Below are positions 19,714 through 46,719 of a DNA stretch of 64,000 bases, piece after piece. The position numbers were made by a program, and so were the translations under genes. The DNA is taken from assembly GCF_021405525.1 (NCBI RefSeq), contig NZ_JAGQAG010000001.1, positions 3,224,001-3,288,000 on the forward strand. The letters are read 5' to 3'. A model generated the notes under the pieces. The model did not search any database. It was not told where the DNA came from and saw nothing but the letters and a program-made list of their open reading frames with translations. Numbering within the stretch: the stretch's first letter is position 1; each line of letters opens with the position of its first letter. The stretch is from Ruegeria pomeroyi (GTDB taxonomy: Bacteria; Pseudomonadota; Alphaproteobacteria; Rhodobacterales; Rhodobacteraceae).

Positions 19714-19720
19714 GAGTGTC

Positions 19721-21822: not shown

Positions 21823-22575
21823 CTAGCGCCCGCGCAACCGCAGCGCCCGCACCATGTGACCGGGCAGAATCGCCGCGCAACGCGCGTAGCGCGGCGCAAG
21901 GCGCAGCGGATCGGTCAACATCCGCCACAGCCATTCCAGCGCCAGCTTCCGCATCCACAGCGGCGCCCGGCGCTGGTGACCGCCCAGGAAATCAAGCCCC
22001 GCCCCCACCGAGGCAAAGCCAACGCCCGGCGCCAGGGCCCGACCGCGCAGCGCCAGCCGTTCCTGTCGGGGGGCGCCCAGTGCCAGGAAACACAGGCCGA
22101 TACGCCGCGTGGCCAGTTCCTTCAGGATCGCCTCTGCCGCCGCACCCTCGGGGTCGAACCCGTATTCGGGGGCATGGGTCCAGGCGATGTCCAGCCCAGG
22201 CGTCTCGGCCTCGAGTACGCGCTTGGCATCCCCCAGTGCCACCTCAGAACTGCCCACAAGCGCCACTGGCACCCGCTCGGCCGCAGCCAGCGCGCAGAGC
22301 GGGCGCACCAGGTCCGAGCCCGGCATCAGTTCGACCGGGCGCTGCGCCAACCGCGCCAGCGCCACGATGGGCCGGCCATCGGCCACCACCAGATCCTGCC
22401 CGGCATAGGCGCGGGCAAAGACAGGGTCGCTGCCAAGCTTGACCAGATGATCGAGGTTGATCGTCGCCAGCGCAAACCCCTCGCCCGCGCGAAACCGGCG
22501 CCCCACCTCGCCCATCAGGGCGTCGCGGGTCGGCATGTTGACCGTCACCCTGTCCTCGCCAAAACTGAATTCCAT
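21823..22575 (-). CDS. WecG/TagA/CpsF-family glycosyltransferase (GT26)
   Basis: The 250-residue product matches the WecG/TagA family that adds a (N-acetyl)mannosamine-type or glucosyl residue to a lipid-linked sugar. Conserved segments are LATINLDHLVKLG, VADGRPIVALARL, VALVGSSEVALGDA, LALGAPRQERLA (the GAPRQE signature) and GAGLDFLGGHQRRAP followed by LEWLWRMLTDPLR. It is transcribed against its neighbours, with its stop 2 bases from the convergent epimerase fusion. It probably adds the second sugar of the repeat unit. Confidence 0.88.
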   Translation of the reverse strand: MEFSFGEDRVTVNMPTRDALMGEVGRRFRAGEGFALATINLDHLVKLGSDPVFARAYAGQDLVVADGRPIVALARLAQRPVELMPGSDLVRPLCALAAAERVPVALVGSSEVALGDAKRVLEAETPGLDIAWTHAPEYGFDPEGAAAEAILKELATRRIGLCFLALGAPRQERLALRGRALAPGVGFASVGAGLDFLGGHQRRAPLWMRKLALEWLWRMLTDPLRLAPRYARCAAILPGHMVRALRLRGR

Positions 22576-22755
22576 CGACCTGCCTCCGACTGCCCCCGCC
22601 TTGACTAGCCGCCGACGCGTCCTCAGGCCAGCCCCTGCTGCGAAAGCGAACCGATCCTGCCACCGGATCGCCGCATTCGCGCGCTACCCCCGGGACAAGC
22701 GGGCCGAGCCCTGATAGGCTTGCCCATCCACATGCGACCCACAAGGCAGGAGCAG

Positions 22756-24216
22756 ATGCCCAATCCCGTCGCCTATCTGATGCTGATGCTGTGGCCGATT
22801 GCCTGCGCGTTCCTGTTCACGCGCCTGCCGCTGCAACGCGCAATCATCTGGGGTATTCTGGGGGGCTATCTTATTCTGCCCCCGGTGGCCGAGTTCGACC
22901 TGCCCCTGGTGCCGTCGATGAACAAGGATTCCATCGCCTCGGTCGCCACCTTCCTCGCCTGTCTTTTTGTCGCGCGCAAACGGATACCGCTTCTGCCCGA
23001 CAGTTGGCCGGTAAGGGTATTGCTTTTCAGCTTTGTCCTGTGTGCGGTGCCTACAGTGCTGACCAATCGCGAACCGCTGATCTTTGAGATGGCGCTGCAG
23101 GCCGGGCCGATACGGTTCTTTACCAACTACGTGCCAGGCATGGGGCTACGCGACATCTTGTCGATTATTCTAAGCCAGTTGATCATCTTGTTGCCGTTCT
23201 TCCTAGGACGCGCGCATCTGGCGGACGAGGCCGGGTTACGCAATCTCGTGCTGGCCATGGCGGCAGCAGGACTGGCCTATTCGCTACCGTCGATCTTCGA
23301 GATTATCTTCGCCCCGGTGCTGAACATCTACGTCTACGGCTTCTTCCAGCACGACTTTAACCAGATGATCCGCGAAGGTGGTTTCCGTCCAATCGTGTTC
23401 CTGCCCCACGGGCTTTGGTTGGCCTTCTTCATGACGACCGCCGTGCTATCTGCCACGGCACTGACACGGCACGGTCACGGCAAGAACCGCGAGCGCTGGA
23501 CCGCCGCGCTGGTCTATTTGCTGCTGGTTCTCAACGCCTGCAAGAGCCTCGCGGCGCTGGGCTATGGTCTGGCGTTGTCGCCGGTCCTGCTGTTCCTACG
23601 TCACAACACGGTGCTGCGCATCGCGCTAGGAATTGCCGCGCTGGCGATCGCCTATCCGGCGCTGCGCAATATCGGAGCGATACCGCTGGATGCCATTCTT
23701 GAACGCGCAGCCGCGATCAGCACCGAGCGCGCACAATCTCTGGAGTTCCGCTTCACCAACGAGGAGCAGTTGTTGGAGCGGGCGCATCTGAAACCTTGGT
23801 TCGGATGGGGAGGTTGGAATCGAAATCTGGTCCTGGATAGCCAGACCGGGCAGATAGTCAGCATTCCTGACGGCGCATGGATCATCGCCTTCGGGACCTT
23901 TGGCTGGGTCGGGTATATTGCAAAGATGGGCCTTCTTGCCGCACCAATTATCATGATGGCCAGGCAATCTCGCAAGACAAACTCTGCCGAGATCTCGGAT
24001 TTCGCCGCACCGCTGGTCTTGATTCTAGCCGCCACGATGACCGACATGCTGCTGAATGACACTCTGACACCCTTCACTTGGCTCTGCGCTGGGGCGGTGC
24101 TGGGGTACGTAGAACAATTGCGGCGCCCGCTAAAGCGACCTTTGCCTAGCCCGAGAGAGAATGCGACGGTCTTTGGCGGGCATATGCCTGCTGATGAAGC
24201 TCGGCCCGTGTTGTGA
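22756..24216 (+). CDS. O-antigen polymerase/ligase-like membrane protein (candidate Wzy)
   Basis: The 486-residue protein is hydrophobic throughout, with about ten predicted membrane segments. A large loop contains ERAHLKPWFGWGGWNRN, then SIPDGAWIIAFGTFGWVGYI, the arrangement of O-antigen polymerase-like proteins where GWG and the later D-x-x-W motif are conserved. No other polymerase is visible in the locus, so this is the best candidate for the repeat-unit polymerase. The ATG at 22756 follows GGCAGGAG closely; ATG 22720 and 22732 are in-frame alternatives. Codon use is slightly less G/C-rich than in the glycosyltransferase genes around it. Confidence 0.72.
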   Translation: MPNPVAYLMLMLWPIACAFLFTRLPLQRAIIWGILGGYLILPPVAEFDLPLVPSMNKDSIASVATFLACLFVARKRIPLLPDSWPVRVLLFSFVLCAVPTVLTNREPLIFEMALQAGPIRFFTNYVPGMGLRDILSIILSQLIILLPFFLGRAHLADEAGLRNLVLAMAAAGLAYSLPSIFEIIFAPVLNIYVYGFFQHDFNQMIREGGFRPIVFLPHGLWLAFFMTTAVLSATALTRHGHGKNRERWTAALVYLLLVLNACKSLAALGYGLALSPVLLFLRHNTVLRIALGIAALAIAYPALRNIGAIPLDAILERAAAISTERAQSLEFRFTNEEQLLERAHLKPWFGWGGWNRNLVLDSQTGQIVSIPDGAWIIAFGTFGWVGYIAKMGLLAAPIIMMARQSRKTNSAEISDFAAPLVLILAATMTDMLLNDTLTPFTWLCAGAVLGYVEQLRRPLKRPLPSPRENATVFGGHMPADEARPVL

Positions 24217-24477: not shown

Positions 24478-27400
24478 ATGGCAACGCGTGAAGTAAAGTT
24501 CGAACAGGATGACATAGCCATTGTCGGCATGTCCGTCCATGTTCCCGGCGCCCAGTCGGCGGCAGAATTCTGGCGCAATCTTAGGGCGGGGATCGAGTCG
24601 ATCCAACCGCTTGATGACGAGGCGCTGCTAGAAGCGGGCGAGCGCGCCGACCGGTTGGCTGACCCAAACTATGTCCGCGCCGCAGCCCTGCTGGACGGGT
24701 TTGACCGGTTCGACGCCGATTTCTTTGGCTTCTCACCGAAAGAGGCGGCCATCCTTGATCCCCAGCACCGGCAATTCCTGGAAACCGCCTGGGAGGCGAT
24801 GGAGGATGCCGGCCACCCGCCCGAGACCATCGCCGGGCCGATCGGCGTCTATGCCGGCTGCGGCATGGGCAGCTATTTCTATTTCAACATCTGCTCGAAC
24901 CCCGGCCTGGTCGACGATGTGGGCATGTTCCTGCTGCGCCACACCGGCAACGACAAGGATTTCCTGTCTACCCGCGTGAGCCATGTGTTCGACCTGCACG
25001 GGCCGAGCGTGAACGTGCAGACTGCCTGTTCCACCTCGCTGGTCGCGATCCACTATGCCTGCAAGGCGCTGCGCGAGGGCGAATGCGACATGGCGCTGGC
25101 GGGCGGGTCCACCATCGAACTGCCGCAGGGGCGCGGGTACCTTTACAAGGAAAACGAAATCCTCAGCCCCGATGGCCATTGCCATGCCTTCGACCACCGG
25201 GCGCAGGGCACCGTGTTCGGCTCGGGCGCGGGCGTGGTCGCGCTGCGACGGCTCAAGGACGCGCTGGCCGATGGCGACCATATCTGGGCGGTGATCAAGG
25301 GCAGTGCCATCAACAATGATGGTGCCGACAAGGCCGGATATCTGGCCCCCTCGGTCGGCGGTCAAGCGCAGGCGATCAGCGCCGCGCTGAAGGCGGCGGA
25401 TGTGCCCGCCGAGACCATCGACTATGTCGAATGCCACGGGACCGGCACCTATCTGGGCGACCCGATCGAGGTCTCGGCCCTGACCCAGGCCTATCGCGAA
25501 CAGACCGCCGAAAGCGGGTTTTGCAAGATCGGCTCGGTCAAGACCAATATCGGCCATCTCGACACCGCCGCCGGGGTTGCGGGCTTTGCCAAGACCGCGC
25601 TGGCGCTGCATCACAAACAGATCCCGCCCTCGCTGGGCTATGAGGCGCCGAACCCGGCGATTGATTTCGACACCAGCCCGTTCCGCGTCAACGACCGGCT
25701 GACCGACTGGACGCCGCACAAGGGGCCGCGCCGGGGCGCGGTGAACAGCCTTGGCGTGGGCGGCACCAACGCGCATGTCATCCTGGAGGAGGCGCCCGAG
25801 CGCGCCGCCTCGGACGAAAGCGAGTTTCCGTTCCAGATCCTGTGCCTGTCGGCCCGGTCACGCGCCGCGCTCGATGGAAATGCCAAGGCGTTGGCAGGCT
25901 GGCTGCGCGCCAATCCGGACGTCAATCTGGCCGATGTGGCCTATACGCTGAAAGAGGGTCGTCGCGGATTCGAGAAACGCCGCGTGCTGGTGGCCGAAAC
26001 CGCGCTTGAAGCCGCCGACCTGCTGGAGCAGGGCGATCCGCGCCGGGTGTTCACCCATGACGCGCTGGGGGCCGGGGCCGATGTGGTGTTCATGTTCCCC
26101 GGTGGCGGGGCGCAATATGCGGGCATGGCGCGCGACCTTTACGAGGTCGAGCCGGTCTTTGCCGAATGGATGGACCGGGGGCTGGAGCATCTGCAAAAGA
26201 GCCTCGACTACGATATCCGCGCCATCTGGCTGCCCGACGGCGATACCGCCGAAGCAGACGCCCGGCTGCAACAGCCCTCGGTGCAGCTGCCGCTGATCAT
26301 GATCGTGGAATATGCGCTGGCGCAGCTGTGGCTCAGCTGGGGCGTGCGGCCCGCAGCGCTGGTGGGCCATTCGATGGGCGAGAATACCGCCGCCTGTCTG
26401 GCCGGTGTGATCGGGTTCGAGGATTGCATCGACCTGGTGCTGCTGCGCGGACGGCTGTTTGACACCGTGGCGCCGGGCGGCATGCTGTCGATCTCGCTGC
26501 CGCTGGACGAGGTACAGGCGCTGATCGGCGAGGAACTGGACATTGCCAGCGTCAATGCCCCCCGCCTGACCGCTGTCAGCGGCCCGCAAGCGGCGCTGGA
26601 CCGGCTGTCCGAGGCGCTGCGCGCCCGCGAGGTCGAGTATCAGCGCATCCAGATCGACATTGCCGCCCATTCGCGGATGCTGGAGCCGATCCTGAAGGAG
26701 TACGGCGATTTCCTGCGCGGCCTGACGCTGAGCGCGCCGCAAATCCCGATCCAGTCCAACCGCACCGGCGCGGTGCTGACCGAGGCAGAGGCCACCAGCC
26801 CCGACTACTGGGTCGCACAGCTGCGCAACACCGTCCATTTCGCCGATTGCATCGACGCCCTGTCCGAGGGTCGCGACCGGGTGTTTCTGGAGGTCGGTCC
26901 CGGCAAGGCGCTGAGCTCGCTGGCACAGATGTCGCCCGGCGTGTCGCCCGGCCAGGTGCTGAGCAGCCTGCGCCACCCCGATCAGGACATTGCCGATGAT
27001 GCCTATTTCCTGGGCGTGATCGGTCGGCTCTGGGCCTGCGGGGTCGAGGCCGATTGGCCCCAGATCTGGGGCGAGGCGCTTCGCCACCGCCTGCCCCTGC
27101 CGACCTATGCCTTTCAGCGCAGCCGCTATTTCATCGAGCCCGGCACCCGGCAGGCCGAGGCGCCGCGCGCCCTGCCCGCGCGCAGCGACGACCTTGCCCA
27201 GTGGGGCTGGCGTCCGGTCTGGCGCCCGCGTCTGGCCGATTGCGACATCGACACCGCGACCGAGCTGGCCGAGGCCGCGCCGCGCAACTGGCTGTTCTTC
27301 ATGGACGAGACCGGGCTGGCCGAGGCCGCCGCGCAAAGGCTGGAGGGTGTCGGGCATCATGTCACCCGCATCCGCTCGGGCGACAGTTATGCCCGTCTAA

Positions 27401-30400
27401 CCGATGGCAGCTATACGCTCGCGCCCGAACAGGGGCGGATGGGCTATGACCTGCTGTTGCGTGATCTGGCCGAGCAGCAGCGGCTGCCCGACCGGATCGG
27501 CCATTTCTGGCTGGTGACCGAGGACGAGCGGTTCCGCCCCGGCTCCAGCTTTCATGACCGCAACATGGAACACGGTTTCTTTGCCCTGACCTGGCTGGCG
27601 CAGGCGCTGGGGCAGGTGGACCTGCCCGGACCGCTGCACATCACCACCTTTACCTCGGGCGCGGCGCGGCTGCGCGACGAGGGGCTGACCTATCCCGAAA
27701 AGGCCACCATCGCCGGGCCGATGGGGGTGCTGCCGCATGAAATGCCGGGACTGACCTGTGCGACCGTCGATATCGAACTGCCCGCCCGTCTGCGCCCACC
27801 GCTTTGGGCGCGACTGCGCGGTGCGGCACCCGAACAGGACGAGGACCTGACCCCGGCGGTGCTCGAAGAGTTGTTGGCTGAACCCGGAAACACCATCGCT
27901 GCCCGGCGCGATGGTAAGCGGTTTGGCCGCAGTTACCGCCCGGCGCCGCTGACTGACGCAGGACCTGCCTTCCGAGACGGTGGAACCTATCTGATCACCG
28001 GCGGTTTCGGCGGTATCGGCCTGACGCTGGCCCGTCACCTGATGGACCAGCACGGCGCCAACGTGATCCTGCTGGGGCGTGATCCGCTGCCCGCCGACCG
28101 CGCCTCCTGGCTGTCCGGGCACAGCCCCGCCGACCGTACCAGCCGTCGCATCCGTGCCCTGGCCGAGTTGGAGGCGCTGGAACGTGGCGAGGTGATGGCG
28201 ATTGCCGCCGATGTGGCCAATATCGACCAGATGCGCCGTGCCTTGGGCGAGGCCGAGGACCGGTTCGGCGCGCTTACCGGCGTGATCCATGCCGCGGGCC
28301 ATATTGCGGACGGCCCCGCATTGGCCAAGACCGAGACCGATCTGCACCGTGTCCTGTCGCCCAAGATGACCGGGCTGCGGGTGCTGGACCAGCTCTTCCC
28401 CGACGGGGTGCTGGAACTGATGGTGCTCTGTGCCTCGTCCTCGACCGCCAGCCGCCCGGCGGGTCAGGTCGATTACGTGGCCGCCAACGAGTATCTCAAC
28501 GCCTTTGCCGACAGCCGGCAGAGCGGCGCAACCCGCGTGGTCGCGGTCAACTGGGGCGTCTGGGCCGATATCGGCATGGCCGCCGATGCCCGCGCCGCCC
28601 GGCTGGGCGCCGGTCACGACACCGAGCGCAGCCCGACCGGGCTGCCGCTGCTGCACGAGGTCGGGTTTGACGAGGCGGGCAACCGCCTGTTCGTCTCGCG
28701 GCTGAGCGCCGAGGATTGGGTATTCGACGAACACCGCACCGCCGGTGGCACCGCGCTGCTACCCGGCACCGGCTATCTGGAACTGGCTGCGCAGGCGCTG
28801 CACGCGCAGGGCATCACCCACCCCTATGACATCCGCGATCTCTATTTCTTCCGCCCGCTCAGGGTGAACGGCACCCCGCGCGAGGTGGTGGTCCGGCTGG
28901 AGGACGCGCCGGACGGCGTCGCCTTTTCCGTCTGGAGCGCGCTGCCCGGTGGCGGCTACGCCCAGAACGCGCAGGCCCGGCTGGTGCCCGCGCCCGAGGC
29001 ACAGGCCGAACCGCTCGACCTGGCCGCCATCGCCAGCCGCTGCCCCGAGGCAGAGGGTGCCGCGCCCGATACGGTGCTGCACAGTCCGCAGGAACGGCAC
29101 CTGCAATTCGGCCCTCGCTGGCAGGTGCTGCGCGCCACCGCGCGCGGTACGGGTGAGGGGCTGGCCCGGCTTGCCCTGCCCGAAGCCTATCGCGGCGATC
29201 TCGACAAAGGCTACCGGATGCATCCCGGCCTGCTCGACCTGGCCACCGGCTGGGCCATCAAGCTGTCCGCCGGCTATGATGGCGAAACGCTCTGGGTACC
29301 GGTGTCCTACCGCGCGATCCGGGTTCATGCGCCGCTGACGGCCGAAATCCGCAGCTGGATGCGCCTGACGCCCGATCAGGCCGCGGTGGCGGGGCATGCC
29401 TCCTTCGACATCACCCTGACCGATCCCTCGGGCGCCGTTCTGGTCGAGATCGAAGGGTTCCAGATGCAGCGCACGACGGGCACCATCGACCTGAGCGATC
29501 CCGAACGCCCTGACGCGGAGGCCGCCACGCTGGGGCTGGAGCCCGCACGGAAATCGACGCCGCTCTCGCCCGAGGAACAGCGCCTGCACCACAACATCGC
29601 CCAGGGCATCCGAGCCGAGGAAGGCGCCGAGGCGCTGGTGCGCGCATTGGGCACCGGGCTGCCGCAACTGGTGGTCAGCTCGCTTGACCTGTCCCGGCTG
29701 ATCGCCGAGGCCGATCAGGTCGCAGCCCCGGCGGAAACCGGGCAGAGCTTTGACCGGCCCGAGCTGGACACCGATTATGTGGCGCCCGCGACCGAGACGG
29801 AAAAGACCTTGGCCGGGTTCTTCGAAACCCTTCTGGGGGTCAGCAAGGTCGGCACCCAGGACAGTTTCTTTGACCTTGGCGGCCATTCCCTGATCGCGGT
29901 GCGCCTCTTTGCCCAGATCAACCGCGCCTTTGCGGTGGAATTCCCGATCTCGCTGCTGTTCGAGGCACCCAGCGTCGCCGCCATTGCCGAGCGGATCGAC
30001 GCACGGCTGGGCCGCAGCAGCGCGGGCGATACCCCGGAAACAGCCGAGGCAGCCGCACCCAAGCTGACCCATGTGGTGCCGCTGCATCAGGCGGCGGCTG
30101 GCCATGCCAGCCCGTTCTTCGTGGTGGCCGGCATGTTCGGCAATGTGCTCAACCTGCGCCATCTGGCGCTGATGCTGGGCCGCGACCGGACGGTCTATGG
30201 CCTTCAGGCGCGCGGGCTGGTGGGCGAGGATGCCCCGCATGAAACCATCCCCGAGGCGGCGCGCGACTATATCGCCGAGATGCGGCAGGTACAGCCGCAT
30301 GGCCCCTATCTGCTGGGCGGTTTCTCGGGCGGCGGCATCATCGCCTATGAGATCGCGCAACAGCTGCGTGACGCGGGCGAAGAGGTGGCGCTGCTCGTAC

Positions 30401-30903
30401 TGCTCGACACCCCGCTGCCGCAGCGCCCACCCCTTGGCCGCCGCGACAAGGCGTTGATCAAGCTGCAACAGTTCCGCCAGCGCGGACCACGCTACCTGGT
30501 CGATTGGGTCAAGGCGCGTTTTGCCTGGGAAGTGCAGCGCAGGCGCGGCCCGGTTCAGGACGGCGGCGCCGGTGCCTTCAACAACACGCGGATCGAGGCC
30601 GCCTTTCTGCGCTCGGCTGCGGGTTACGCACTGCGGCCATGGGAGGGTGCGACAGTACTGTTCCGGCCGCCGCTGGAACGGCTCTGGCAGGTGTCGGGCG
30701 GCAACTGGGTCAATCATGAGCGTCACTATGTCTATCCCGACAACGACTGGGGCCGCTGGATCGCGGAACTCGAGGTGATCGAGGTGCCCGGTGACCATGA
30801 CAGCATGGTGCTGGTGCCCAATGTCTCGGTCCTGGCCGAGCATCTGCGCGGCCAGCTCAACGCCATCGACAGCGCCGGCGCCCTGCCGCATGCGGCGGAG
30901 TGA
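24478..30903 (+). CDS. Type I polyketide synthase, KS-AT-KR-DH-ACP-TE
   Basis: The 2141-residue enzyme is a single polyketide module with its own release domain. KS (about 10-440) has the Cys184-His320-His360 triad in TACSTSL, CHGTGT and TNIGHL. AT (about 530-850) has the nucleophile Ser632 in GHSMGE and His731 in AAHSRML, which is neither the malonyl HAFH nor methylmalonyl YASH signature. KR (about 905-1390) has TGGFGGIGL and the catalytic set Ser1320, Tyr1333, Asn1337. A DH-like double hotdog follows KR (His1419; Asp1587 in HPGLLD). ACP carries Ser1804 in DLGGHSL. TE (about 2110 end) has Ser1950 in GFSGG, Asp1977 and His2107. It sits 5 bases before a glycosyltransferase and one gene from an NRPS, inside a polysaccharide locus. 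The domain assignments are firm; the product is not known. Confidence 0.93.
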   Translation: MATREVKFEQDDIAIVGMSVHVPGAQSAAEFWRNLRAGIESIQPLDDEALLEAGERADRLADPNYVRAAALLDGFDRFDADFFGFSPKEAAILDPQHRQFLETAWEAMEDAGHPPETIAGPIGVYAGCGMGSYFYFNICSNPGLVDDVGMFLLRHTGNDKDFLSTRVSHVFDLHGPSVNVQTACSTSLVAIHYACKALREGECDMALAGGSTIELPQGRGYLYKENEILSPDGHCHAFDHRAQGTVFGSGAGVVALRRLKDALADGDHIWAVIKGSAINNDGADKAGYLAPSVGGQAQAISAALKAADVPAETIDYVECHGTGTYLGDPIEVSALTQAYREQTAESGFCKIGSVKTNIGHLDTAAGVAGFAKTALALHHKQIPPSLGYEAPNPAIDFDTSPFRVNDRLTDWTPHKGPRRGAVNSLGVGGTNAHVILEEAPERAASDESEFPFQILCLSARSRAALDGNAKALAGWLRANPDVNLADVAYTLKEGRRGFEKRRVLVAETALEAADLLEQGDPRRVFTHDALGAGADVVFMFPGGGAQYAGMARDLYEVEPVFAEWMDRGLEHLQKSLDYDIRAIWLPDGDTAEADARLQQPSVQLPLIMIVEYALAQLWLSWGVRPAALVGHSMGENTAACLAGVIGFEDCIDLVLLRGRLFDTVAPGGMLSISLPLDEVQALIGEELDIASVNAPRLTAVSGPQAALDRLSEALRAREVEYQRIQIDIAAHSRMLEPILKEYGDFLRGLTLSAPQIPIQSNRTGAVLTEAEATSPDYWVAQLRNTVHFADCIDALSEGRDRVFLEVGPGKALSSLAQMSPGVSPGQVLSSLRHPDQDIADDAYFLGVIGRLWACGVEADWPQIWGEALRHRLPLPTYAFQRSRYFIEPGTRQAEAPRALPARSDDLAQWGWRPVWRPRLADCDIDTATELAEAAPRNWLFFMDETGLAEAAAQRLEGVGHHVTRIRSGDSYARLTDGSYTLAPEQGRMGYDLLLRDLAEQQRLPDRIGHFWLVTEDERFRPGSSFHDRNMEHGFFALTWLAQALGQVDLPGPLHITTFTSGAARLRDEGLTYPEKATIAGPMGVLPHEMPGLTCATVDIELPARLRPPLWARLRGAAPEQDEDLTPAVLEELLAEPGNTIAARRDGKRFGRSYRPAPLTDAGPAFRDGGTYLITGGFGGIGLTLARHLMDQHGANVILLGRDPLPADRASWLSGHSPADRTSRRIRALAELEALERGEVMAIAADVANIDQMRRALGEAEDRFGALTGVIHAAGHIADGPALAKTETDLHRVLSPKMTGLRVLDQLFPDGVLELMVLCASSSTASRPAGQVDYVAANEYLNAFADSRQSGATRVVAVNWGVWADIGMAADARAARLGAGHDTERSPTGLPLLHEVGFDEAGNRLFVSRLSAEDWVFDEHRTAGGTALLPGTGYLELAAQALHAQGITHPYDIRDLYFFRPLRVNGTPREVVVRLEDAPDGVAFSVWSALPGGGYAQNAQARLVPAPEAQAEPLDLAAIASRCPEAEGAAPDTVLHSPQERHLQFGPRWQVLRATARGTGEGLARLALPEAYRGDLDKGYRMHPGLLDLATGWAIKLSAGYDGETLWVPVSYRAIRVHAPLTAEIRSWMRLTPDQAAVAGHASFDITLTDPSGAVLVEIEGFQMQRTTGTIDLSDPERPDAEAATLGLEPARKSTPLSPEEQRLHHNIAQGIRAEEGAEALVRALGTGLPQLVVSSLDLSRLIAEADQVAAPAETGQSFDRPELDTDYVAPATETEKTLAGFFETLLGVSKVGTQDSFFDLGGHSLIAVRLFAQINRAFAVEFPISLLFEAPSVAAIAERIDARLGRSSAGDTPETAEAAAPKLTHVVPLHQAAAGHASPFFVVAGMFGNVLNLRHLALMLGRDRTVYGLQARGLVGEDAPHETIPEAARDYIAEMRQVQPHGPYLLGGFSGGGIIAYEIAQQLRDAGEEVALLVLLDTPLPQRPPLGRRDKALIKLQQFRQRGPRYLVDWVKARFAWEVQRRRGPVQDGGAGAFNNTRIEAAFLRSAAGYALRPWEGATVLFRPPLERLWQVSGGNWVNHERHYVYPDNDWGRWIAELEVIEVPGDHDSMVLVPNVSVLAEHLRGQLNAIDSAGALPHAAE

Positions 30904-30907
30904 TCCC

Positions 30908-31915
30908 ATGACCAGCGCAACAGTCTTGACCGTCATCCTGAACTACCGCACGCCCGACCTGACGATCAGCGCCTGCGAAGCCGCCATGCGCGAGATGCAG
31001 GATCTGCCCGGCGAGATCGTGGTGGTCGACAATGCCTCGGGCGATGGCTCGTTCGAGAAGCTTTCCAAGGCCGCTACCGACTATGGCTGGCTGGCCAGCG
31101 GCAAGCTGCGGCTGGTGCAAAGCGGGCGCAATGGCGGCTTTGGCGCCGGGATGAACGTGGGCATGAACGCGGGTCTGTCGAACGGGGCCGCACCCGATTT
31201 CTATTACCTCTTGAACTCGGATGCCTGGCCCGATCCTGGCTGCATCCGGGGCCTGCGCGATTTCCTGCTGGAAACCCCCGATGCCGGTCTGGCCGCCAGC
31301 GCCGTGCGCGGCATCGACGACGATCCGCACCGCACCGCCTTTCGCTTTCCCACCGCCGCGGGCGAGTTCGAGGCCGCCGCCCGCACCGGCCCGCTGAGCC
31401 GCCTGCTGCGCGGCCATATCATCGCGCCCCCCCTGCCCGCGCGGCGCACAAGGGTCGACTGGGCCTCGGGCGCCAGCCTGATGATCCGGCGCGAGGTGAT
31501 CGCGGCGACCGGTGGGTTCGACGAGCGATTCTTTCTTTATTTCGAGGAAACCGACCTGTGCCGCCGTGCCCAGGCCGAGGGCTGGAGCACGCATTACCTG
31601 CCTGACGTGGGTGTGGTGCATATCGGCTCGGCCAGCACCGGCATGAAAAGCTGGAACCGCACCCCGCAATACTGGTTCGATTCCCGGCTTCACTATTACC
31701 TCAAGACCCATGGGCGGGCCTATGCGGCGGGTGCCACGCTGGCGCTGGTGACCGGTGCCGCGATCTGGCGCCTGCGCCGTCTGGTACAGGCCAAGCCGCA
31801 GGCCGACCCCGACCGTTTCCTGACCGATCTGGTCAGCCATGCCTTGCGCGCCGCTTTGGGCCGGTCACGTACCGCCCCCGCCCCAGTTACCGCCATCCCG
31901 GAGGATAGCAGATGA
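30908..31915 (+). CDS. Glycosyltransferase, GT2 family (rhamnosyltransferase-like)
   Basis: The 335-residue transferase has TVILNYRTPDLTISAC at the N-terminus, VVVDNASGDGS, SGRNGGFGAGMNVG, the DxD-like YLLNSDAWPDPG and WASGASLMIRREVI followed by GGFDERFFLYFEETDLCRRA, a set typical of WbbL/rhamnosyltransferase-like GT2 enzymes. The ATG at 30908 gives the canonical start. It lies between the PKS (4-base gap) and the NRPS (4-base overlap), so it probably glycosylates the assembly-line product or an intermediate; equally it could serve the polysaccharide. Confidence 0.88.
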   Translation: MTSATVLTVILNYRTPDLTISACEAAMREMQDLPGEIVVVDNASGDGSFEKLSKAATDYGWLASGKLRLVQSGRNGGFGAGMNVGMNAGLSNGAAPDFYYLLNSDAWPDPGCIRGLRDFLLETPDAGLAASAVRGIDDDPHRTAFRFPTAAGEFEAAARTGPLSRLLRGHIIAPPLPARRTRVDWASGASLMIRREVIAATGGFDERFFLYFEETDLCRRAQAEGWSTHYLPDVGVVHIGSASTGMKSWNRTPQYWFDSRLHYYLKTHGRAYAAGATLALVTGAAIWRLRRLVQAKPQADPDRFLTDLVSHALRAALGRSRTAPAPVTAIPEDSR

Positions 31916-34900
31916 GCCTGACCCATGTCGTGATCGGAAACGAATCCCTGTTGATCGGTTGCAGCGAGATGCTGCTCGACCGCGGGCACCAGATCGCCGC
32001 CGTCGTTTCCACCGATGCCGAAATCGCCACCTGGGCGCGGGGCAAGGGCCTCGCCCATATGCGCGAGATCTCGGAGCTGGAGCCGCATCTCGCGGGCGCC
32101 GGGTTCGACTGGTTGCTGTCGATCGCCAATCTCCGGGTGATCCCGCAGGCGGTGCTGGCCCTGCCGCGCCGGGGGGCCGTGAACTTTCACGACGGACCGC
32201 TGCCGCGCTATGCCGGGCTGAACACGCCGGCATGGGCGCTGATGGCGGGCGAAACCCGCTATGGCGTGACCTGGCATCTGATCGAAGGCGGCATCGACGA
32301 GGGCGACATCCTGGCGCAACAGATGTTCGACATCGCCGAGGATGACACCGCGTTTTCGCTGAACTCCAAGTGCTATGGCGCGGCGCTTGACAGTTTCGCA
32401 CGGGTGGCCGACCAGCTGGAACAGGGGCTCGAACGGCAAGCGCAGGATCTGAGCCAGCGCAGCTATTTCGGACGCGACGCCCGGCCCGCCGCCGCCGGGC
32501 GGCTGGACTTCACCAAACCCGCCACGACGCTGGCCGCGCTGGTGCGCGCGCTTGATTTCGGCGACTATGCCAACCCGCTGACCTGCGCCAAGATCGTGGC
32601 TGGCGGGCGGGTGCTGGCTGTTGGTCAGGCCCGGGCCGAAGGCCGCTCGGGCGCCCTGCCCGGAACCGTTCTTTCCACAACTGCCGACAGCCTCCTCCTG
32701 GCCTGTGGCGAAGGCGATCTGATGCTGGGTGCGCTGCGCGCTCTGGACGGCTTGCCGGTCGATCTGGCCGAACTTGCCCCCAAGGGGCAGCGCCTGCCCG
32801 CATTCTCTGCAACCGAGGGCGAGGCTCTGGGCCGCGCGCTGGCTGCCGCCCTGCCCGCCGAACGACACTGGCATGTCGCCCTCACTGCGATGCGGCCGCT
32901 GCCGGTGCCGCTGGCCATCGGTAACACGGCCGGCACACCCGCGCCGCACCGTCTTTCGGTTCCACACGGCCTGGGCGAAGCCGCTCTGATGGCCTCGGTC
33001 GTCGTCTGGGCCTTGCGGAGCAGCGGTGAGGACTACGGCGATCTGGCCTTGACCACTGGCGCCATGCAGCAGGCCGCCGCAAACGGCTATGTCAGCGGTT
33101 GGGTGCCTTTGCAGGCGGCGCTGACCTCGACCCGCGCCGACCTGATCGGCTGGGTCGAACAGACGGCCCAAGCCGCCCGCGCCACGGGCGCGCCCCCCGC
33201 CGACCTGATGCTGCGCGACCCGCGCATTTCCCACAGGACCATACCACAAGTGGCGCTGGCGCTGGATGGCGCCGGGCCGGTTCCGGGGGCGGTACTGACC
33301 GTGGCGCTGGACCAGGGGCAGGCCACGCTTTTTGCCGATGCCGCGCGGCTCGACCCGCGCCAGACCGAGATCCTGGCCCGGCGGCTGGAAACCGCGATGC
33401 ATGCGATGGGCCGCGCGCGCGACACCGATACCGTCTCCGCGTTGCCGGTTCTGCCGGCGTCGGAACGCTCGACCATGATCAGCGACTGGAACCGTAGCGC
33501 CCGCGATTACGACCGGGCGTTGACCATACACCATGCTTTCGAGGATCAGGCCGCCCGCACACCCGAGGCCCCGGCGCTGGTCTTTGAGGGGCAAACGCTC
33601 AGCTACGCCGCCCTCAATGCCCGCGCCAATGCGGTGGCCGCCCGCCTGTGTGAAATGGGCGCCGGTCCGGGCAGCCATATCGGCATCTATCTCGACCGCG
33701 GCCCCGAATTGCTGATTGCGGCGCTGGCCGCGCTCAAGGCGGGCGGCGCCTATGTGCCGCTCGACCCCGCCTATCCGGCCGACCGCATCGCCCATTATGT
33801 CAGCGACAGCCGCGCCGCGATCATCGTGACCAATGGCGCCCGCGCACAAAGCCTGCCCGACACGCAGGCGCAGATCCTCGACCTTGGCCCGTTGGCAGAT
33901 GCCAGACAACCCGAGAATGCCGATGGCGGTGCCAGCGCCGACGATCTGGCCTATGTGATCTACACGTCAGGTTCGACTGGCACGCCCAAGGGGGTGATGG
34001 TCGAACACCGCAATGTGGCCAATTTCTTTGCCGGGATGGACGACCGCATCGACCATGCCAATGGCGGCGTCTGGCTGGCGGTCACCTCGCTGAGCTTTGA
34101 TATCTCGGTGCTGGAACTGTTCTGGACGCTGGCGCGCGGCTTCAAGGTGGTGCTGAGTTCCGACGAGAACCGCGCCGAAGTCTCGAAAGGCCCAATCGCG
34201 GTCAGTGACCGGCCGATCGACTTCAACCTGATGTATTGGGGCAATGACGACGGGCCGGGGCCGAAGAAATACGAACTGCTGCTCGAAGGCGCGAAATTCG
34301 CCGACGCGCACGGGTTCAACGCGGTCTGGACGCCGGAACGGCATTTCCACGCCTTTGGCGGCCCCTATCCGAACCCCTCGGTGACCGGCGCGGCGGTGGC
34401 TGCGGTGACAAAAAATCTCAGCGTGCGCGCCGGGTCCTGCGTGGCCCCGCTGCACCATCCCTCCCGCATCGCCGAGGAATGGGCAGTGATCGACAACCTG
34501 ACCGGCGGGCGCGCGGCGCTTGGCATCGCCTCGGGCTGGCAGCCTGACGATTTCATCCTGCGCCCGGAAAACACCCCGCCGCGCAACAAGCCCGCCATGT
34601 TCGAAACCATCGAAACCCTGCGCAAGCTCTGGCGCGGCGAGGCGGTGGAGTTCGCCAAGGCCGATGGCACCATGCATTCGGTCGTCACCCAGCCGCGCCC
34701 GGTGTCCAAGGAACTGCCGCTCTGGGTCACCACGGCGGGCAACCCGGAGACCTGGCGCGAGGCCGGGGCCATCGGCGCCAACGTGCTGACCCACCTTCTG
34801 GGGCAGAGCATCGACGAGGTGGCCGACAAGATCCGCATCTATCACGCCGCCCTGCGCGAGGCGGGCCATGACCCGGCCGATTTCAAGGTGACGCTGATGC

Positions 34901-36516
34901 TGCACACCTATCTGGCCGACACCCGCGAAGAGGCCGCGCGCATCGCGCGCGAGCCGATGAAGGATTACCTGCGCTCGGCCGCCGGGCTGATCAAGCAATA
35001 TGCCTGGGCCTTCCCCGCCTTCAAGAAACCCAAAGGGGTGACCAACGCCTTTGAAATGGATCTGGGCGTGCTGAGCGGCGACGAGCTGGAAGCGATCCTC
35101 GATTTCGCCTTCGAGCGGTATTTCGAGGACTCGGGGCTGTTCGGCACCATCAACGATGCCGTGGCCCGCGTCGAACAGCTCAAACGCATCGGCGTGGACG
35201 AGGTGGCTTGCCTCATCGACTATGGCATCGACCCTGCGGTCGTGCTCGAAGGGCTGAAACCCCTGGCCGAGGTCCTGAAACGGGTGCGCGCGCCCAGCGC
35301 GCTGGCCGAGGATGATTTCTCGCTGGCCGCCCAGATCGTGCGCCATGGGGTGACGCATATTCAATGCACGCCCTCGATGGCGCGGATGATCGCCATGAAC
35401 GACGAGGCGCGCATGGCGCTTGGCCGGGTCAAACACCTGCTGCTGGGGGGCGAGGCCCTGCCCGGCGATCTGGTCGAGGATCTGCGCGAGGCGACCGGCG
35501 CCCGCATTCTCAACATGTACGGGCCGACCGAGACCACGATCTGGTCCACCTGTGCGCTGGTGCCGCCCCGGACCGAGGGCACGGTCGATATCGGCCAGCC
35601 CATCGCCAATACCACCGTTTATGTGCTGGACGGCAGCGGACAACCCTGCCCCATCGGCGTGCCCGGAGAGCTGCATATCGGCGGCGAGGGGGTGACACGC
35701 GGCTATTGGCAGCGCCCCGAACTGACCGCCGAGCGGTTCCCGCGCGATCCGTTTGCCGCCGAGGCCGGGCTCACGGTGACCGCCGCGCCGCAGATGTACC
35801 GCACCGGCGATCTGGTACGCTGGCGGGCGGACGGGCAGCTCGATTTCCTGGGGCGCAGCGACCATCAGGTCAAGATCCGCGGCCAGCGGATCGAGTTGGG
35901 CGAGATCGAGGCGGCGATGGCCTCTTATCCCGGTGTCACCGGCGCGGTGGTGATTGCGCGTGAGATGGGCGGCGACACAAGGCTGGTGGGCTATGTCACC
36001 ACCGGCGGGCCGGTCTCGGATGTTGCCCTGCGCGCGCATCTGGCCGCGCGCCTGACCGAGGTGATGGTGCCCGCACATATCGTGACGCTCGACGCGTTTC
36101 CGCTGACGCCCAACAAGAAGATCGACCGCAAGGCCCTGCCCGAACCGGTGCAGCAGCGCGCCGCACCCAGCGCCCCCTCGGAACCCGTCAGCGGCGCCGC
36201 GGCGCAGATCGCCGCGATCTGGTCGCGTATCCTGGGCGTCGGTGACATCCGGGCCGATGACAACTTCTTTACCCTTGGCGGGCATTCCCTGCTGGCGGTG
36301 CAGGCCCATCGCGAGATCCGCGCGGCGCTGAACGTGCCGGCCCTGCCCATCACCGACATCTTCCGCTTTCCCACCCTGGGCGGGCTGGCCGCGCATTTGT
36401 CAAAAGGCGATGCTCCCGATGAACCGACGCCACCTGCCGTCGACAGCGAGGAACGCGCCAGCACCATGTCGCGCCGGCGGGCGATGCGGGCCAACCGGCA
36501 GGAACGGGTGCGGTGA
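31912..36516 (+). CDS. NRPS: formyltransferase, C-like remnant, adenylation domain with inserted luciferase-like monooxygenase, PCP
   Basis: The 1534-residue protein begins with a methionyl-tRNA-formyltransferase-like domain (1 to about 300) with the Asn91-His93-Asp129 catalytic set in NFHDGPLPRY and GGIDEGDIL. Residues about 330-530 resemble the end of a condensation domain (LPASERSTMISDWN) but no HHxxxDG is present. The adenylation domain starts near 541, with YTSGSTGTPKG at about 684. Between FDISVLELFW (730-739) and HIQCTPS (1149-1155) a roughly 370-residue FMN-dependent luciferase-like monooxygenase of the MupA/Atu3671 type is inserted. The adenylation domain then resumes (NMYGPTETTIW at 1201, YRTGDLVRW, PNKKIDRKAL) and a PCP with Ser1459 in LGGHSLL ends it. 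The specificity residues read D-I-L-Q-L-G-M-I-W-K, one change from the glycine code. There is no TE, so the chain must pass to the PKS. Confidence 0.92.
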   Translation: MSLTHVVIGNESLLIGCSEMLLDRGHQIAAVVSTDAEIATWARGKGLAHMREISELEPHLAGAGFDWLLSIANLRVIPQAVLALPRRGAVNFHDGPLPRYAGLNTPAWALMAGETRYGVTWHLIEGGIDEGDILAQQMFDIAEDDTAFSLNSKCYGAALDSFARVADQLEQGLERQAQDLSQRSYFGRDARPAAAGRLDFTKPATTLAALVRALDFGDYANPLTCAKIVAGGRVLAVGQARAEGRSGALPGTVLSTTADSLLLACGEGDLMLGALRALDGLPVDLAELAPKGQRLPAFSATEGEALGRALAAALPAERHWHVALTAMRPLPVPLAIGNTAGTPAPHRLSVPHGLGEAALMASVVVWALRSSGEDYGDLALTTGAMQQAAANGYVSGWVPLQAALTSTRADLIGWVEQTAQAARATGAPPADLMLRDPRISHRTIPQVALALDGAGPVPGAVLTVALDQGQATLFADAARLDPRQTEILARRLETAMHAMGRARDTDTVSALPVLPASERSTMISDWNRSARDYDRALTIHHAFEDQAARTPEAPALVFEGQTLSYAALNARANAVAARLCEMGAGPGSHIGIYLDRGPELLIAALAALKAGGAYVPLDPAYPADRIAHYVSDSRAAIIVTNGARAQSLPDTQAQILDLGPLADARQPENADGGASADDLAYVIYTSGSTGTPKGVMVEHRNVANFFAGMDDRIDHANGGVWLAVTSLSFDISVLELFWTLARGFKVVLSSDENRAEVSKGPIAVSDRPIDFNLMYWGNDDGPGPKKYELLLEGAKFADAHGFNAVWTPERHFHAFGGPYPNPSVTGAAVAAVTKNLSVRAGSCVAPLHHPSRIAEEWAVIDNLTGGRAALGIASGWQPDDFILRPENTPPRNKPAMFETIETLRKLWRGEAVEFAKADGTMHSVVTQPRPVSKELPLWVTTAGNPETWREAGAIGANVLTHLLGQSIDEVADKIRIYHAALREAGHDPADFKVTLMLHTYLADTREEAARIAREPMKDYLRSAAGLIKQYAWAFPAFKKPKGVTNAFEMDLGVLSGDELEAILDFAFERYFEDSGLFGTINDAVARVEQLKRIGVDEVACLIDYGIDPAVVLEGLKPLAEVLKRVRAPSALAEDDFSLAAQIVRHGVTHIQCTPSMARMIAMNDEARMALGRVKHLLLGGEALPGDLVEDLREATGARILNMYGPTETTIWSTCALVPPRTEGTVDIGQPIANTTVYVLDGSGQPCPIGVPGELHIGGEGVTRGYWQRPELTAERFPRDPFAAEAGLTVTAAPQMYRTGDLVRWRADGQLDFLGRSDHQVKIRGQRIELGEIEAAMASYPGVTGAVVIAREMGGDTRLVGYVTTGGPVSDVALRAHLAARLTEVMVPAHIVTLDAFPLTPNKKIDRKALPEPVQQRAAPSAPSEPVSGAAAQIAAIWSRILGVGDIRADDNFFTLGGHSLLAVQAHREIRAALNVPALPITDIFRFPTLGGLAAHLSKGDAPDEPTPPAVDSEERASTMSRRRAMRANRQERVR

Positions 36517-37184
36517 CAGGGGCGGCGGCCACCGGGGCGCTGATGCTGGCGGCGCCGCTGCTGGATACGCGCGTGGCGCTGGCCGCGACCGACCCCGCCG
36601 GGCCGCATCAGGCCTATCCCGAAGAACTGGCCGCCCTGTCCCGCGCCACCACCAAACGGCAGCGTGAATTTGCCGCCGGGCGCGCCGCCGCCCGCCTCTC
36701 GCTGCGCGAACTGGGCGCCCCGGCTTTGGCGATCCCGATGGGAACCGACCGGGCGCCGGTCTGGCCGCCGGGGCTGCTGGGTAGCATCACCCATACCGAC
36801 ACCGCCTGTCTGGCCGCCACCGCATGGGAGGGCGAGATTCGCCTCCTCGGCCTGGACATGGAACCCGACACGCCACTGGATACAGACCTGATGGAGACCA
36901 TCTGCATCCCCGCCGAACGCGACTGGCTGGCCAGGCAGGACATGGCCGGGCACTGGGCCAAGCTGATCTTTTCGGCCAAGGAATGCGCCTACAAGGCGCA
37001 ATACCGGCTGAGCCGCGCCCTGATCGGGTTCGACGCCATCGCGATCAGGCCCGATCCCGTCAGCCAGAGCTTTGCCGCCACATTTCAGGCCGACATACCG
37101 CCCTTTTCCAGGGGTGAGACACTGCACGGGCGTTTTGCGCGCGGGGGCGGGCTGATTATCACTGTGCTGGCCGTTGCCGCGTGA
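36513..37184 (+). CDS. 4'-phosphopantetheinyl transferase (EntD/Sfp superfamily)
   Basis: The 223-residue enzyme attaches the phosphopantetheine arm of coenzyme A to carrier-protein serines. It shows QREFAAGRAAARLSLRELG (the family's RxxxGRxxAR-like block), GSITHTDTACLAAT (the SHT-like block), LGLDMEP (metal-binding Asp) and FSAKECAYKAQY (the conserved W/FSxKEsxyKa motif). The GTG at 36513 overlaps the NRPS stop by 4 bases. It would activate the ACP at Ser1804 of the PKS and the PCP at Ser1459 of the NRPS. The N-terminal stretch is short and alanine-rich. Confidence 0.9.
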   Translation: MTGAAATGALMLAAPLLDTRVALAATDPAGPHQAYPEELAALSRATTKRQREFAAGRAAARLSLRELGAPALAIPMGTDRAPVWPPGLLGSITHTDTACLAATAWEGEIRLLGLDMEPDTPLDTDLMETICIPAERDWLARQDMAGHWAKLIFSAKECAYKAQYRLSRALIGFDAIAIRPDPVSQSFAATFQADIPPFSRGETLHGRFARGGGLIITVLAVAA

Positions 37185-37215
37185 AATCTGAATGAGGTTA
37201 CGCTAGAAAGCCCCC

Positions 37216-38163
37216 ATGTTGCGCGCTGTTCTGCCCACCCTCCTGATCCTAGCGATTCTGATGGCCGGTCTCTGGTGGGGCTGGCTGCGCCCGCGCCCGC
37301 CCGACAGCGCCGTGGTGGATGCCGCCTATGCCCGACCGCTGCCACCGCCCGCGGGTGCGATGGCGGTGTTTCACCTCGGTCACAGCCTGGTGGGACAGGA
37401 CATGCCGGCGATGCTGCAACAGTTGTCCCCAATCGGGCACGACTATGCCAGCCAGCTGGGATGGGGCACCACGCTCAAGGCGCATTGGGAGCCGGATGAG
37501 GGGATCAATGGCTTTGAGCAGATGAACGATCATCCCCGCTATCGCCCCGCCGATATCGCGCTGCGCTCGGGTGACTATGACGCGGTGATCCTGACCGAAA
37601 TGGTCGAGCTAACCGACGCGATCAAGTATTTCGAAAGCGACCGCTATTTCAGCAAATGGGCCGAACTTGCACGTGAGGCACGGCCCGATACGCGGGTGTT
37701 CTTGTACGAAACCTGGCACTGGTTGGACGATCCCGATGGCTGGCTCAACCGGCTCGACCGTGATCTTGTCGCGCTTTGGGAAAACGAGATCCTGCTGCGC
37801 GACATGGCCCGTAACCCCGACAACCCCGCCCATGTGATCCCGGTGGGTCAGGTCCTGTCCCGCTTTGTCCGCGCTGTCGAAGCGCGTGGCGGTGTGCCTG
37901 GCATTGAAGGGCCCGAGGCGCTGTTCCACACCGACGACCAGGGACGACTCGACCCGATCCACATGGGTGATCTGGGCAACTATCTGATCGCGCTCACCCA
38001 TTACGCGGTGCTCTATCAGGCATCCCCCGTCGGCCTTCCCCACCAGTTGAACCGGGCCGATGGCAGCCCCGCCTTTGCCCCCTCGCCAGAGGCCGCGCGC
38101 CTGATGCAAGAGATCGTCTGGCAGACCGTCACCAGCTATCCCAAGACCGGAGTCCCGCAATGA
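37216..38163 (+). CDS. Membrane-anchored SGNH-hydrolase-like protein
   Basis: The 315-residue protein has one N-terminal membrane helix (about residues 5-23) and an extracytoplasmic domain. A GHS motif (Ser57 in FHLGHSLVG) takes the place of the GDSL nucleophile block, and Asp246-x-x-His249 (DPIHMGDLGNYL) matches SGNH block V. Together with YDAVILTEMVE these point to an esterase or acyltransferase fold. The next gene has the same domain at its N-terminus, with a GHSLFG block and DDIHPNDLGFY. It may remove or move acyl groups on the polysaccharide (inference). Family assignment rests on motifs only. Confidence 0.6.
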   Translation: MLRAVLPTLLILAILMAGLWWGWLRPRPPDSAVVDAAYARPLPPPAGAMAVFHLGHSLVGQDMPAMLQQLSPIGHDYASQLGWGTTLKAHWEPDEGINGFEQMNDHPRYRPADIALRSGDYDAVILTEMVELTDAIKYFESDRYFSKWAELAREARPDTRVFLYETWHWLDDPDGWLNRLDRDLVALWENEILLRDMARNPDNPAHVIPVGQVLSRFVRAVEARGGVPGIEGPEALFHTDDQGRLDPIHMGDLGNYLIALTHYAVLYQASPVGLPHQLNRADGSPAFAPSPEAARLMQEIVWQTVTSYPKTGVPQ

Positions 38164-40697: not shown

Positions 40698-41539
40698 GCC
40701 GCTGGCTGAGCGTCATCCTCCCCGCCCATGACGAGGCAGCGTGGATTGGCGATTGCGCCCGCGCGCTCCTGGCCTCGGACCCGCTGCCCGCAGGCTGGCG
40801 GTGCGAAGTGCTGGTGGTGGCCAATGGCTGCACCGACGACACCGCCTCACGCGCGCGCGGCTTTGCGGATCAGGCGGCGGCGCGCGGCTGGGACTGGCAG
40901 GTGCTGGAACTGGCCGAGGGTGGCAAACTGGGCGCGCTCACGGCCGGGGATGCGGCAGTGCGAGGCGAATTGCGCGCCTATCTGGATGCGGACGTGCGTC
41001 TGGATGCTGCATTGCTGGCACAACTGGTCGCCGCGCTCGACACCGAGGCGCCCCGCTATGCAAGTGGCGCCCCCCGCGTCGCCCCGGCAAAGAGCCAGAT
41101 CACCCGTCTTTACGCGCGGTTCTGGCAACGCCTGCCCTTTGTCGCAACCGGCGTTCCCGGCTTCGGCCTGTTTGCGGTCAATGCCGCCGGGCGCGCGCGC
41201 TGGGGGAATTGGCCCGATATCATCTCTGACGACACCTTTGTACGGCTGAGTTTCACACCGCAAGAACGCCTGCGTGTGAAGGCTGGCTATGACTGGCCCA
41301 TGGTCGAGGGTTTTGCCAATCTCGTGCGTGTACGGCGACGGCAGGATGCAGGCGTGGCCGAGGTTGCGCGGCTCTATCCGCATCTGCCGCAGAACGATGG
41401 TACACCCGGTCTGGGCATGGGCGGCCTGATCCGGCACCTGCTGCGCGACCCGCTGGGTTTCGCCGTCTATGCAACTGTGGCGATCACGGTGCGGACGCCG
41501 CTTTACCGGCCCCAGTCCCGCTGGGACCGGGGCCGGTAA
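40694..41539 (+). CDS. Glycosyltransferase, GT2 family
   Basis: The 281-residue protein starts at GTG 40694, overlapping the previous stop (GTGA); the in-frame sequence upstream belongs to the shadow of that gene. The start LSVILPAHDEAAWIGDCARA, VLVVANGCTDDTASRAR, LRAYLDADVRLD (DxD) and SDDTFVRLSF are standard GT2 features. C-terminal hydrophobicity is limited. It ends just before a strong convergent terminator. Substrates are unknown. Confidence 0.86.
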   Translation: MSRWLSVILPAHDEAAWIGDCARALLASDPLPAGWRCEVLVVANGCTDDTASRARGFADQAAARGWDWQVLELAEGGKLGALTAGDAAVRGELRAYLDADVRLDAALLAQLVAALDTEAPRYASGAPRVAPAKSQITRLYARFWQRLPFVATGVPGFGLFAVNAAGRARWGNWPDIISDDTFVRLSFTPQERLRVKAGYDWPMVEGFANLVRVRRRQDAGVAEVARLYPHLPQNDGTPGLGMGGLIRHLLRDPLGFAVYATVAITVRTPLYRPQSRWDRGR

Positions 41540-46684: not shown

Positions 46685-46719
46685 ATTTTGACACCTAACC
46701 TATGAATCAACAAATAAAC

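Follow-up and report, generated by a model that had tools for sequence, protein, structure and literature searches.

In a 64,000-nucleotide stretch of the Ruegeria pomeroyi genome (hereafter the window; G000:C1:3224001-3288000 of a 4.51 Mb genome), we found a polyketide synthase (PKS), a family 2 glycosyltransferase (GT2), a nonribosomal peptide synthetase (NRPS) and a 4'-phosphopantetheinyl transferase (PPTase) that form one tightly packed group on the plus strand, within a polysaccharide locus of the Wzx/Wzy type. The domain anatomy of the two large enzymes and their catalytic residues are kept among relatives, and so is the place of the group in polysaccharide loci. This four-gene machine probably turns formylated glycine into a short acid. 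We tentatively read the PKS and the NRPS as an assembly line of two proteins that is dedicated to a surface polysaccharide, its product being a short formamido-ketide acid used on or with the polysaccharide, a reading to which we give just short of an even chance; the substrate, the product and its attachment we infer.

A formylating starter module and a single PKS module

A preliminary description of this DNA had placed four tightly packed plus-strand genes here, and the coordinates, the gene overlaps and Pfam matches bear it out. The GT2 and NRPS genes overlap by 4 bases (GT2 end 31915, NRPS start 31912), as do the NRPS and PPTase genes (36516 / 36513); we moved the GT2 start to the ATG at 30908, the GTG at 30791 being less likely. 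In the NRPS, Pfam finds formyltransferase (F), adenylation (A) and peptidyl carrier protein (PCP) domains, and neither a complete condensation (C) domain nor a thioesterase (TE) was found there. The preliminary description had given the NRPS as a formyltransferase module lacking a TE; it had overlooked a monooxygenase inserted in the A domain and half of a C domain.

To follow residues across relatives we used 124 loci, of which 123 NRPSs and 112 PKSs (the window included in the 112) passed a length filter. The F domain aligns to LgrA; its residues N91 and D129 are kept in 122/123 NRPSs and H93 in 121/123. A formyltransferase with these N-H-D residues, followed by an A domain and a PCP, is the anatomy of a formylating starter. 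Between F and A lie about 230 poorly conserved residues that match an alignment of three condensation domains by hhalign (probability 95.9, E 5.8e-9), and in one relative, G1067, a full-length C domain replaces F. The A-domain code, D-I-L-Q-x-G-M-I-W-K in GrsA numbering, which we take to be of the glycine type, is invariant in 123/123 NRPSs except at positions 299 (variable) and 330 (I in 120, V in 3). A basic tail at the NRPS C-terminus also recurs among relatives.

The insertion is a luciferase-like FMN monooxygenase that scores 471.9 bits against TIGR04020 (cut-off 244.45), and the A domain is matched both before and after it. It resembles the PuwE monooxygenase (6ket; E 3e-99) and is the most conserved domain of the NRPS, with 78% mean identity to the window in 122 relatives. 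The product had been described earlier as a formyl-glycyl-ketide. The A-domain code agrees with the glycyl part, insofar as our assumption about its meaning holds, and the plain form is not supported because the conserved monooxygenase occupies the same module. One alternative is that this enzyme converts formylglycine to alpha-hydroxyglycine, which would collapse to an aldehyde or acyl-imine and act as a reactive cross-linker on the polysaccharide. The conservation of the monooxygenase is in keeping with this, as is the proposal, in the available part of a paper on puwainaphycin, that the PuwE domain and an aminotransferase together produce a 3-amino-2-hydroxy acyl chain (PMC4219810). However, the F domain may instead stabilise the intermediate, and we consider such a cross-linker highly improbable.

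In the PKS, the residues that we presume to be catalytic in the ketosynthase (KS; C184/H320/H360), acyltransferase (AT; S632/H731), ketoreductase (KR; K1296/S1320/Y1333/N1337), dehydratase (DH; H1419/D1587), acyl carrier protein (ACP; S1804) and TE (S1950/D1977/H2107) are invariant in 112/112 full-length PKSs. The most conserved domain is KS, with 76% mean identity to the window. With KS, AT and ACP and their presumed catalytic residues present, the enzyme has the make-up of a modular cis-AT type I PKS. Inspection by eye gave no coiled-coil docking at its N-terminus.

A single reducing module that has its own TE, with KR before DH, could also work iteratively, extending formylglycine into a longer, lipid-like or polyene chain by which the polysaccharide would be anchored or capped; in keeping with this, PDB relatives of the KS-AT region include mycobacterial MAS and Pks13. 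Against this, Pfam found no enoylreductase domain in the PKS, and its three best PDB matches include 8xju_A and 8xjy_A (the same chain in 8xjz), which come from a PKS solved together with a peptide synthetase; the peptide synthetase chain of 8xjz ranks six among the NRPS matches. One relative, L035, has the same module in a colinear line that continues into C-A-PCP-TE. We regard iteration toward a longer chain as improbable.

The cluster keeps its place in polysaccharide loci

When we searched for the NRPS, we found it in 5/5 genomes of the genus, in 145/394 genomes of the family, almost all of different genera (E <= 1e-150), in 8/385 genomes drawn from the class (E <= 1e-150) and in 16/398 drawn from the phylum (E <= 1e-200), the window's own genome being counted each time. 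Two genomes have two full-length NRPS copies each, G517 (contigs C142 and C72) and G511 (C6 and C47). As close relatives we took the best 80 of 583 places at E <= 1e-3 in a scan of named genomes; the 583 are not a count of the PKS-GT2-NRPS-PPTase cluster, as the search patterns also match other monooxygenase-bearing NRPSs. By their record titles, whose assignment to an order is our own, these 80 places are all Rhodobacterales except two labelled Hydrogenophaga. The order PKS-GT2-NRPS-PPTase recurs in 73/80, with the PKS present in 80/80, the GT2 in 79/80 and the PPTase detected in 74/80. Among frames of at least 1200 aa, no GT2 is fused to an NRPS or PKS.

Of the 80 close relatives, 77 have one or more further polysaccharide genes in the fetched flanks, 75 have two or more and 67 have three or more. 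We compared them with 20 control stretches of 20 kb each, placed by hand in 16 of the sampled family genomes (the relatives' loci run up to 26.9 kb): at least one such gene was present in 2/20 and at least two in 0/20. The query proteins came from loci of this type, so that the contrast holds for this kind of gene alone. With at least two polysaccharide genes in 75/80 relatives versus 0/20 controls, we reject a chance neighbourhood, and the link to polysaccharide genes drawn in the preliminary description stands above the control level. Among 30 family loci, picked by hand down the ranking of the 145 NRPS-positive genomes and so not a random draw, 29 have at least two polysaccharide genes and 24 have all four core genes; the sole exception, S_L215, resembles an ordinary NRPS-PKS cluster. 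Three close relatives show no polysaccharide genes. L048, from Leisingera sp. JC1, is a contig of 9.9 kb; L116 breaks off on the PKS side, with no polysaccharide gene in the 10 kb on the other; and L064 is accompanied by a mannose-1-phosphate guanylyltransferase-like protein and by an acyltransferase. The position within a polysaccharide locus is kept in most relatives, which suggests that the product is a chemical part of the polysaccharide or a partner for it.

Beyond the close relatives, we fetched plasmid loci from 11 of the 17 records with 80% coverage and from three of lower coverage. In Rhizobiales plasmids (Aminobacter, Shinella, Rhizobium and Neorhizobium), the NRPS and PKS lie among polysaccharide genes, with the PKS inverted and no GT2 between them, and the same holds for two genomes of the same class, G1007 and G904. 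The GT2 is also absent in L108, and we reject it as an obligatory partner. The preliminary description had suggested that the GT2 attaches the ketide to sugar; this is not supported, since neither the four Rhizobiales plasmid loci examined nor the sister-clade loci described below have a GT2 between the NRPS and the PKS. More likely, it builds the repeat unit. In the Rhizobium sp. BG6 plasmid (L037:13159-19000), the PKS match falls into two pieces, with a longest frame of 1586 aa. The two Paracoccus polysaccharide loci among those fetched (L033:668-4546 and L034:1-3620) contain an additional NRPS gene each; because the one in L033 encodes C-A-PCP-TE as a stand-alone protein of 1292 aa, the assembly line may be longer in Paracoccus.

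Phylogeny separates the polysaccharide-locus clade from a sister clade

We built an NRPS tree of 65 tips. From L040-L099 we took one locus in four, and from L100-L119 none; G1033 and the Nostoc locus L248 had no usable frame and were left out. The root was our choice, a single Streptomyces sequence. A clade of 56 tips (support 0.996) comes nearly entirely from polysaccharide loci, and L048 and L064, where polysaccharide genes were not found, fall within it. Its sister clade has six tips (support 1.0). Two of these, L039 and G287, have glycosyltransferases or sugar-nucleotide enzymes nearby; the other four, L035, S_L215, G346 and G1044, have no adjoining polysaccharide genes in the searches made. 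In L035, an exosortase gene lies within 5 kb of the cluster; the annotated glycosyltransferases there are at distances above 16 kb. According to the preliminary description, the proposal would fail if such genes occurred widely without polysaccharide genes; the loci fetched do not refute it within the 56-tip clade, although four of the six sister tips are, as far as the searches reached, not in polysaccharide loci.

Throughout the sister clade there is no GT2 between NRPS and PKS, and in L035, L039, G287 and G346 the NRPS lies directly upstream of the PKS. In L035, it is followed by KS-AT-KR-DH-ACP-C-A-PCP-TE, a colinear order that argues for the NRPS acting first and the PKS being used for one round. 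The order from NRPS starter to PKS extension proposed in the preliminary description agrees with these loci.

Outside both clades, a capsule locus on a Deinococcus actinosclerus plasmid (L249:6723-20570) has a split version, with a separate formyltransferase and an A-monooxygenase-PCP protein that is 47% identical over 1031 residues. The set adjoins the capsule genes PGA_cap and Polysacc_synt_2 and, as annotated, CapK and UDP-glucose dehydrogenase. Its PKS ends in a condensation-family domain in which we read epimerisation-like motifs by eye; because of this domain, and because Pfam found no TE in the PKS, the release step would differ in Deinococcus. No PPTase was found in the 21 kb fetched. 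The locus also has a FemAB/GNAT-like gene. Another relative, L264:14-14621, has a C-A-monooxygenase-methyltransferase-PCP protein and a divergent KS-AT-KR-DH-ACP-TE; adjoining these are genes for an SGNH-like protein and for a family 3 acyltransferase.

That L035, S_L215, G346 and G1044 carry the same module as ordinary NRPS-PKS clusters would fit a product that is a free small molecule (a signal, adhesion cue or antibacterial) co-produced with the polysaccharide, for example in biofilms, while the GT2 serves the polysaccharide or glycosylates the molecule. The terminal TE likewise suggests a released acid or lactone, and earlier authors, in the available portions of their papers, class the cluster as a secondary-metabolite cluster. 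However, co-regulation by itself hardly explains why the genes are retained amid changing polysaccharide genes in nearly all Rhodobacterales loci examined, four Rhizobiales plasmids and two Hydrogenophaga genomes, and the Deinococcus capsule locus carries them as well. By Pfam, there is also no transporter or resistance gene in the string 24478-41539, in which two genes have no Pfam match. A free molecule is a serious possibility in our view, at clearly less than an even chance.

Comparison with known systems

A four-gene cluster of Roseobacter, said to be associated with Martens et al., consists of the same four adjacent genes as the window. In the available part of one paper, this PKS/GT/NRPS/PPTase cluster is reported in 28/57 Roseobacter genomes with an uncharacterised product (PMC4337385), and excerpts of a second describe it in Leisingera sp. 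JC1, again with the product not identified (PMC5014874). In P. inhibens, Inhi_1972 (PKS) and Inhi_1974 (NRPS) are two locus tags apart in an extract of a third (PMC4062626) and may be the same cluster. The portions available of these published accounts mention no polysaccharide locus, formylating glycine-type starter or inserted monooxygenase, and no relatives in Rhizobiales, Hydrogenophaga or Deinococcus; the open-licence literature that we searched gave no link of the four-gene cluster to polysaccharide biosynthesis. What is already known is the four genes, and what is added here is the link to the locus, the anatomy of the starter and the wider spread. The preliminary description had called a polysaccharide or glycolipid with such a group unusual; this needs revising, as the cluster itself is known and common, given the Roseobacter count above and an NRPS in 145/394 family genomes.

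An F-A(Gly)-PCP starter feeding a PKS has been proposed, in the parts of the reports available, for conglobatin (CongA) and phthoxazolin (PtxE), together with OzmO of oxazolomycin (PMC4504003, PMC5764310), and the window has a loading module of the same F-A-PCP layout, putatively for glycine. Unlike in those systems, the NRPS of the window has a monooxygenase inserted in A and a condensation remnant between F and A, and it stands beside a single PKS module in a polysaccharide locus. Among the Pfam-scanned genes of 17.5-47.5 kb, we found no OzmP/CongE-like ATP-pyrophosphatase, with no direct OzmP/CongE comparison made. The myxothiazol enzyme MtaG also has a monooxygenase inserted in its A domain, associated with glycine alpha-hydroxylation, and the PuwE monooxygenase is of the same family as that of the window. 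In contrast to both, the window's monooxygenase sits in a formylating starter module beside a one-module PKS. With other Rhodobacterales Wzx/Wzy-type exopolysaccharide loci, the window shares a sugar transferase, flippase, chain-length protein, WecG/TagA and EpsE-like glycosyltransferases; unlike them, it has a dedicated NRPS-PKS line in the middle.

The surrounding locus

The flanks hold glycosyltransferases, a flippase and polymer genes, as the preliminary description had them: GT4, GT2, WecG and a Wzy-like protein to the left, and an EpsE-like GT4, Wzx, Wzz and a sugar transferase to the right (Table 1). Flippase, sugar transferase and chain-length protein, which mark a Wzx/Wzy-type locus, are all present. 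The left edge would be the first plus-strand group (17537..21820), and the right end seems to lie near 47.5-51 kb; beyond it, at 51323-61463, are genes for putative cyclase, formate-dehydrogenase-like and xanthine-dehydrogenase-like proteins. Homologues of the Gfo/Idh/MocA-epimerase fusion occur in 20/80 close relatives and 10/30 family loci, and a WecG/TagA homologue is present in 25/30 family loci.

Past the PPTase, the plus-strand string goes on to an SGNH-fold protein, an 845-aa protein and a second GT2, its genes overlapping or lying a short gap apart; promoter and terminator scans gave signal near shuffle levels. In the SGNH-fold protein, whose hydrophobic N-terminal helix would be a membrane anchor, Ser57, D246 and H249 are unchanged in 23/23. 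Its predicted structure (pLDDT 93.4) has 4i8i as the best fold match (Z 20.0, rmsd 2.9, 218 aligned), and its fold relatives include carbohydrate esterases; it may be an acyl esterase or acyltransferase. Within the flank fetched, 39/80 close relatives have an SGNH-like gene, as do 10/30 family loci. The 845-aa protein has a GHSL motif at its N-terminus, resembling the preceding SGNH-fold gene, and a homologue in 31/80 close relatives. A GNAT/FemAB-like gene at 48032 was rejected as a conserved acyl transferase (2/32 samples).

Table 1. Positions in the window of the assembly-line genes, their domains and the neighbouring polysaccharide genes
Feature	Position	Strand	Details
GT4	start 17537	+	Pfam
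GT2	start 18646	+	Pfam
Gfo/Idh/MocA oxidoreductase fused to NAD-dependent epimerase	19676-21820	+	Pfam
WecG/TagA/CpsF glycosyltransferase	21823..22575	-	Pfam
O-antigen polymerase (Wzy)-like membrane protein	22720..24216	+	Wzy_C 20.1 bits, below cut-off 31.7
PKS	24478..30903	+	2141 aa; KS-AT-KR-DH-ACP-TE (Pfam)
KS	24508-25797	+	Pfam
AT	26083-26967	+	Pfam
KR	27973-28587	+	Pfam
DH	28645-29517	+	Pfam
ACP	29800-30012	+	Pfam
TE	30100-30852	+	Pfam
GT2 between PKS and NRPS	30908..31915	+	Pfam; junctions
NRPS starter module	31912..36516	+	1534 aa; formyltransferase, condensation remnant, adenylation split by monooxygenase, PCP
Condensation-domain remnant, C-terminal half	32812..33501	+	residues 301-530; hhalign
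Luciferase-like FMN monooxygenase (TIGR04020, MupA/Atu3671 family; PF00296)	34219..35271	+	inside A domain, residues 771-1121
PPTase	36513..37184	+	Pfam 4PPT_N and ACPS
SGNH-hydrolase-fold protein, DUF4886-like	37216..38163	+	hydrophobic N-terminal helix; fold and conserved residues
845-aa protein	38160..40697	+	no Pfam match; long C-terminal part
Second GT2	40694..41539	+	GTG start 40694; last gene of the contiguous plus-strand string; Pfam
EpsE-like GT4	41579..42784	-	profile matches
Wzx-type flippase	43000..44358	+	Pfam
Wzz-like chain-length protein	at 44367, within 44367..47478	-	Pfam
CpsD-kinase-like P-loop protein	within 44367..47478	-	weak Pfam match; kinase homology
Sugar transferase (Bac_transf)	at 46720, within 44367..47478	-	Pfam

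Discussion

In the pathway that we propose, the PPTase would arm both carriers, the A domain would load glycine on the PCP and the F domain would formylate the glycine nitrogen; the inserted monooxygenase would then oxidise the alpha carbon of the tethered glycine. The KS would receive the NRPS starter and one malonate unit would be added, with KR and DH turning the keto group into a double bond. These steps rest on established domain roles and, by analogy, on the proposals for conglobatin, phthoxazolin and puwainaphycin. Finally, the TE would free a small acid or hand the acyl group to an acceptor; candidate products are approximately 4-formamidobut-2-enoic acid (129.04 Da), the corresponding hydroxylated acid (145.04 Da) or a breakdown product, for example 4-oxobut-2-enoic acid (100.02 Da; all masses calculated). 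The acyl group would land on a sugar of the polysaccharide, with the TE itself or the SGNH-fold protein as candidate enzymes; the latter, though not universal, could act on the acyl group outside the membrane.

Several observations weigh against an assembly line dedicated to the polysaccharide. There is no conserved dedicated acyl-transfer enzyme (GNAT in 2/32 samples, SGNH-like genes in 39/80 and 10/30), and a TE commonly releases a free acid. Four of the six sister tips have the same chemistry with no adjoining polysaccharide genes, and in Deinococcus, where the PKS has no TE by Pfam and no PPTase lies in the 21 kb, release would differ. From its KR-before-DH order, an iterative mode of the PKS is possible. 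We think it unlikely that the product goes as far as an exopolysaccharide repeat unit with a formylglycine-ketide group, made reactive by glycine alpha-oxidation, that cross-links or glues the matrix in Rhodobacterales and Rhizobiales and again at the Deinococcus capsule locus.

The genes have a fixed place in polysaccharide loci, and the matrix should therefore be searched for the product, not the culture extract alone. Should the product prove to belong to the polysaccharide, the decoration of surface polymers by NRPS-PKS chemistry would be widespread in marine and root-associated bacteria, which would bear on biofilms and on new biopolymers.

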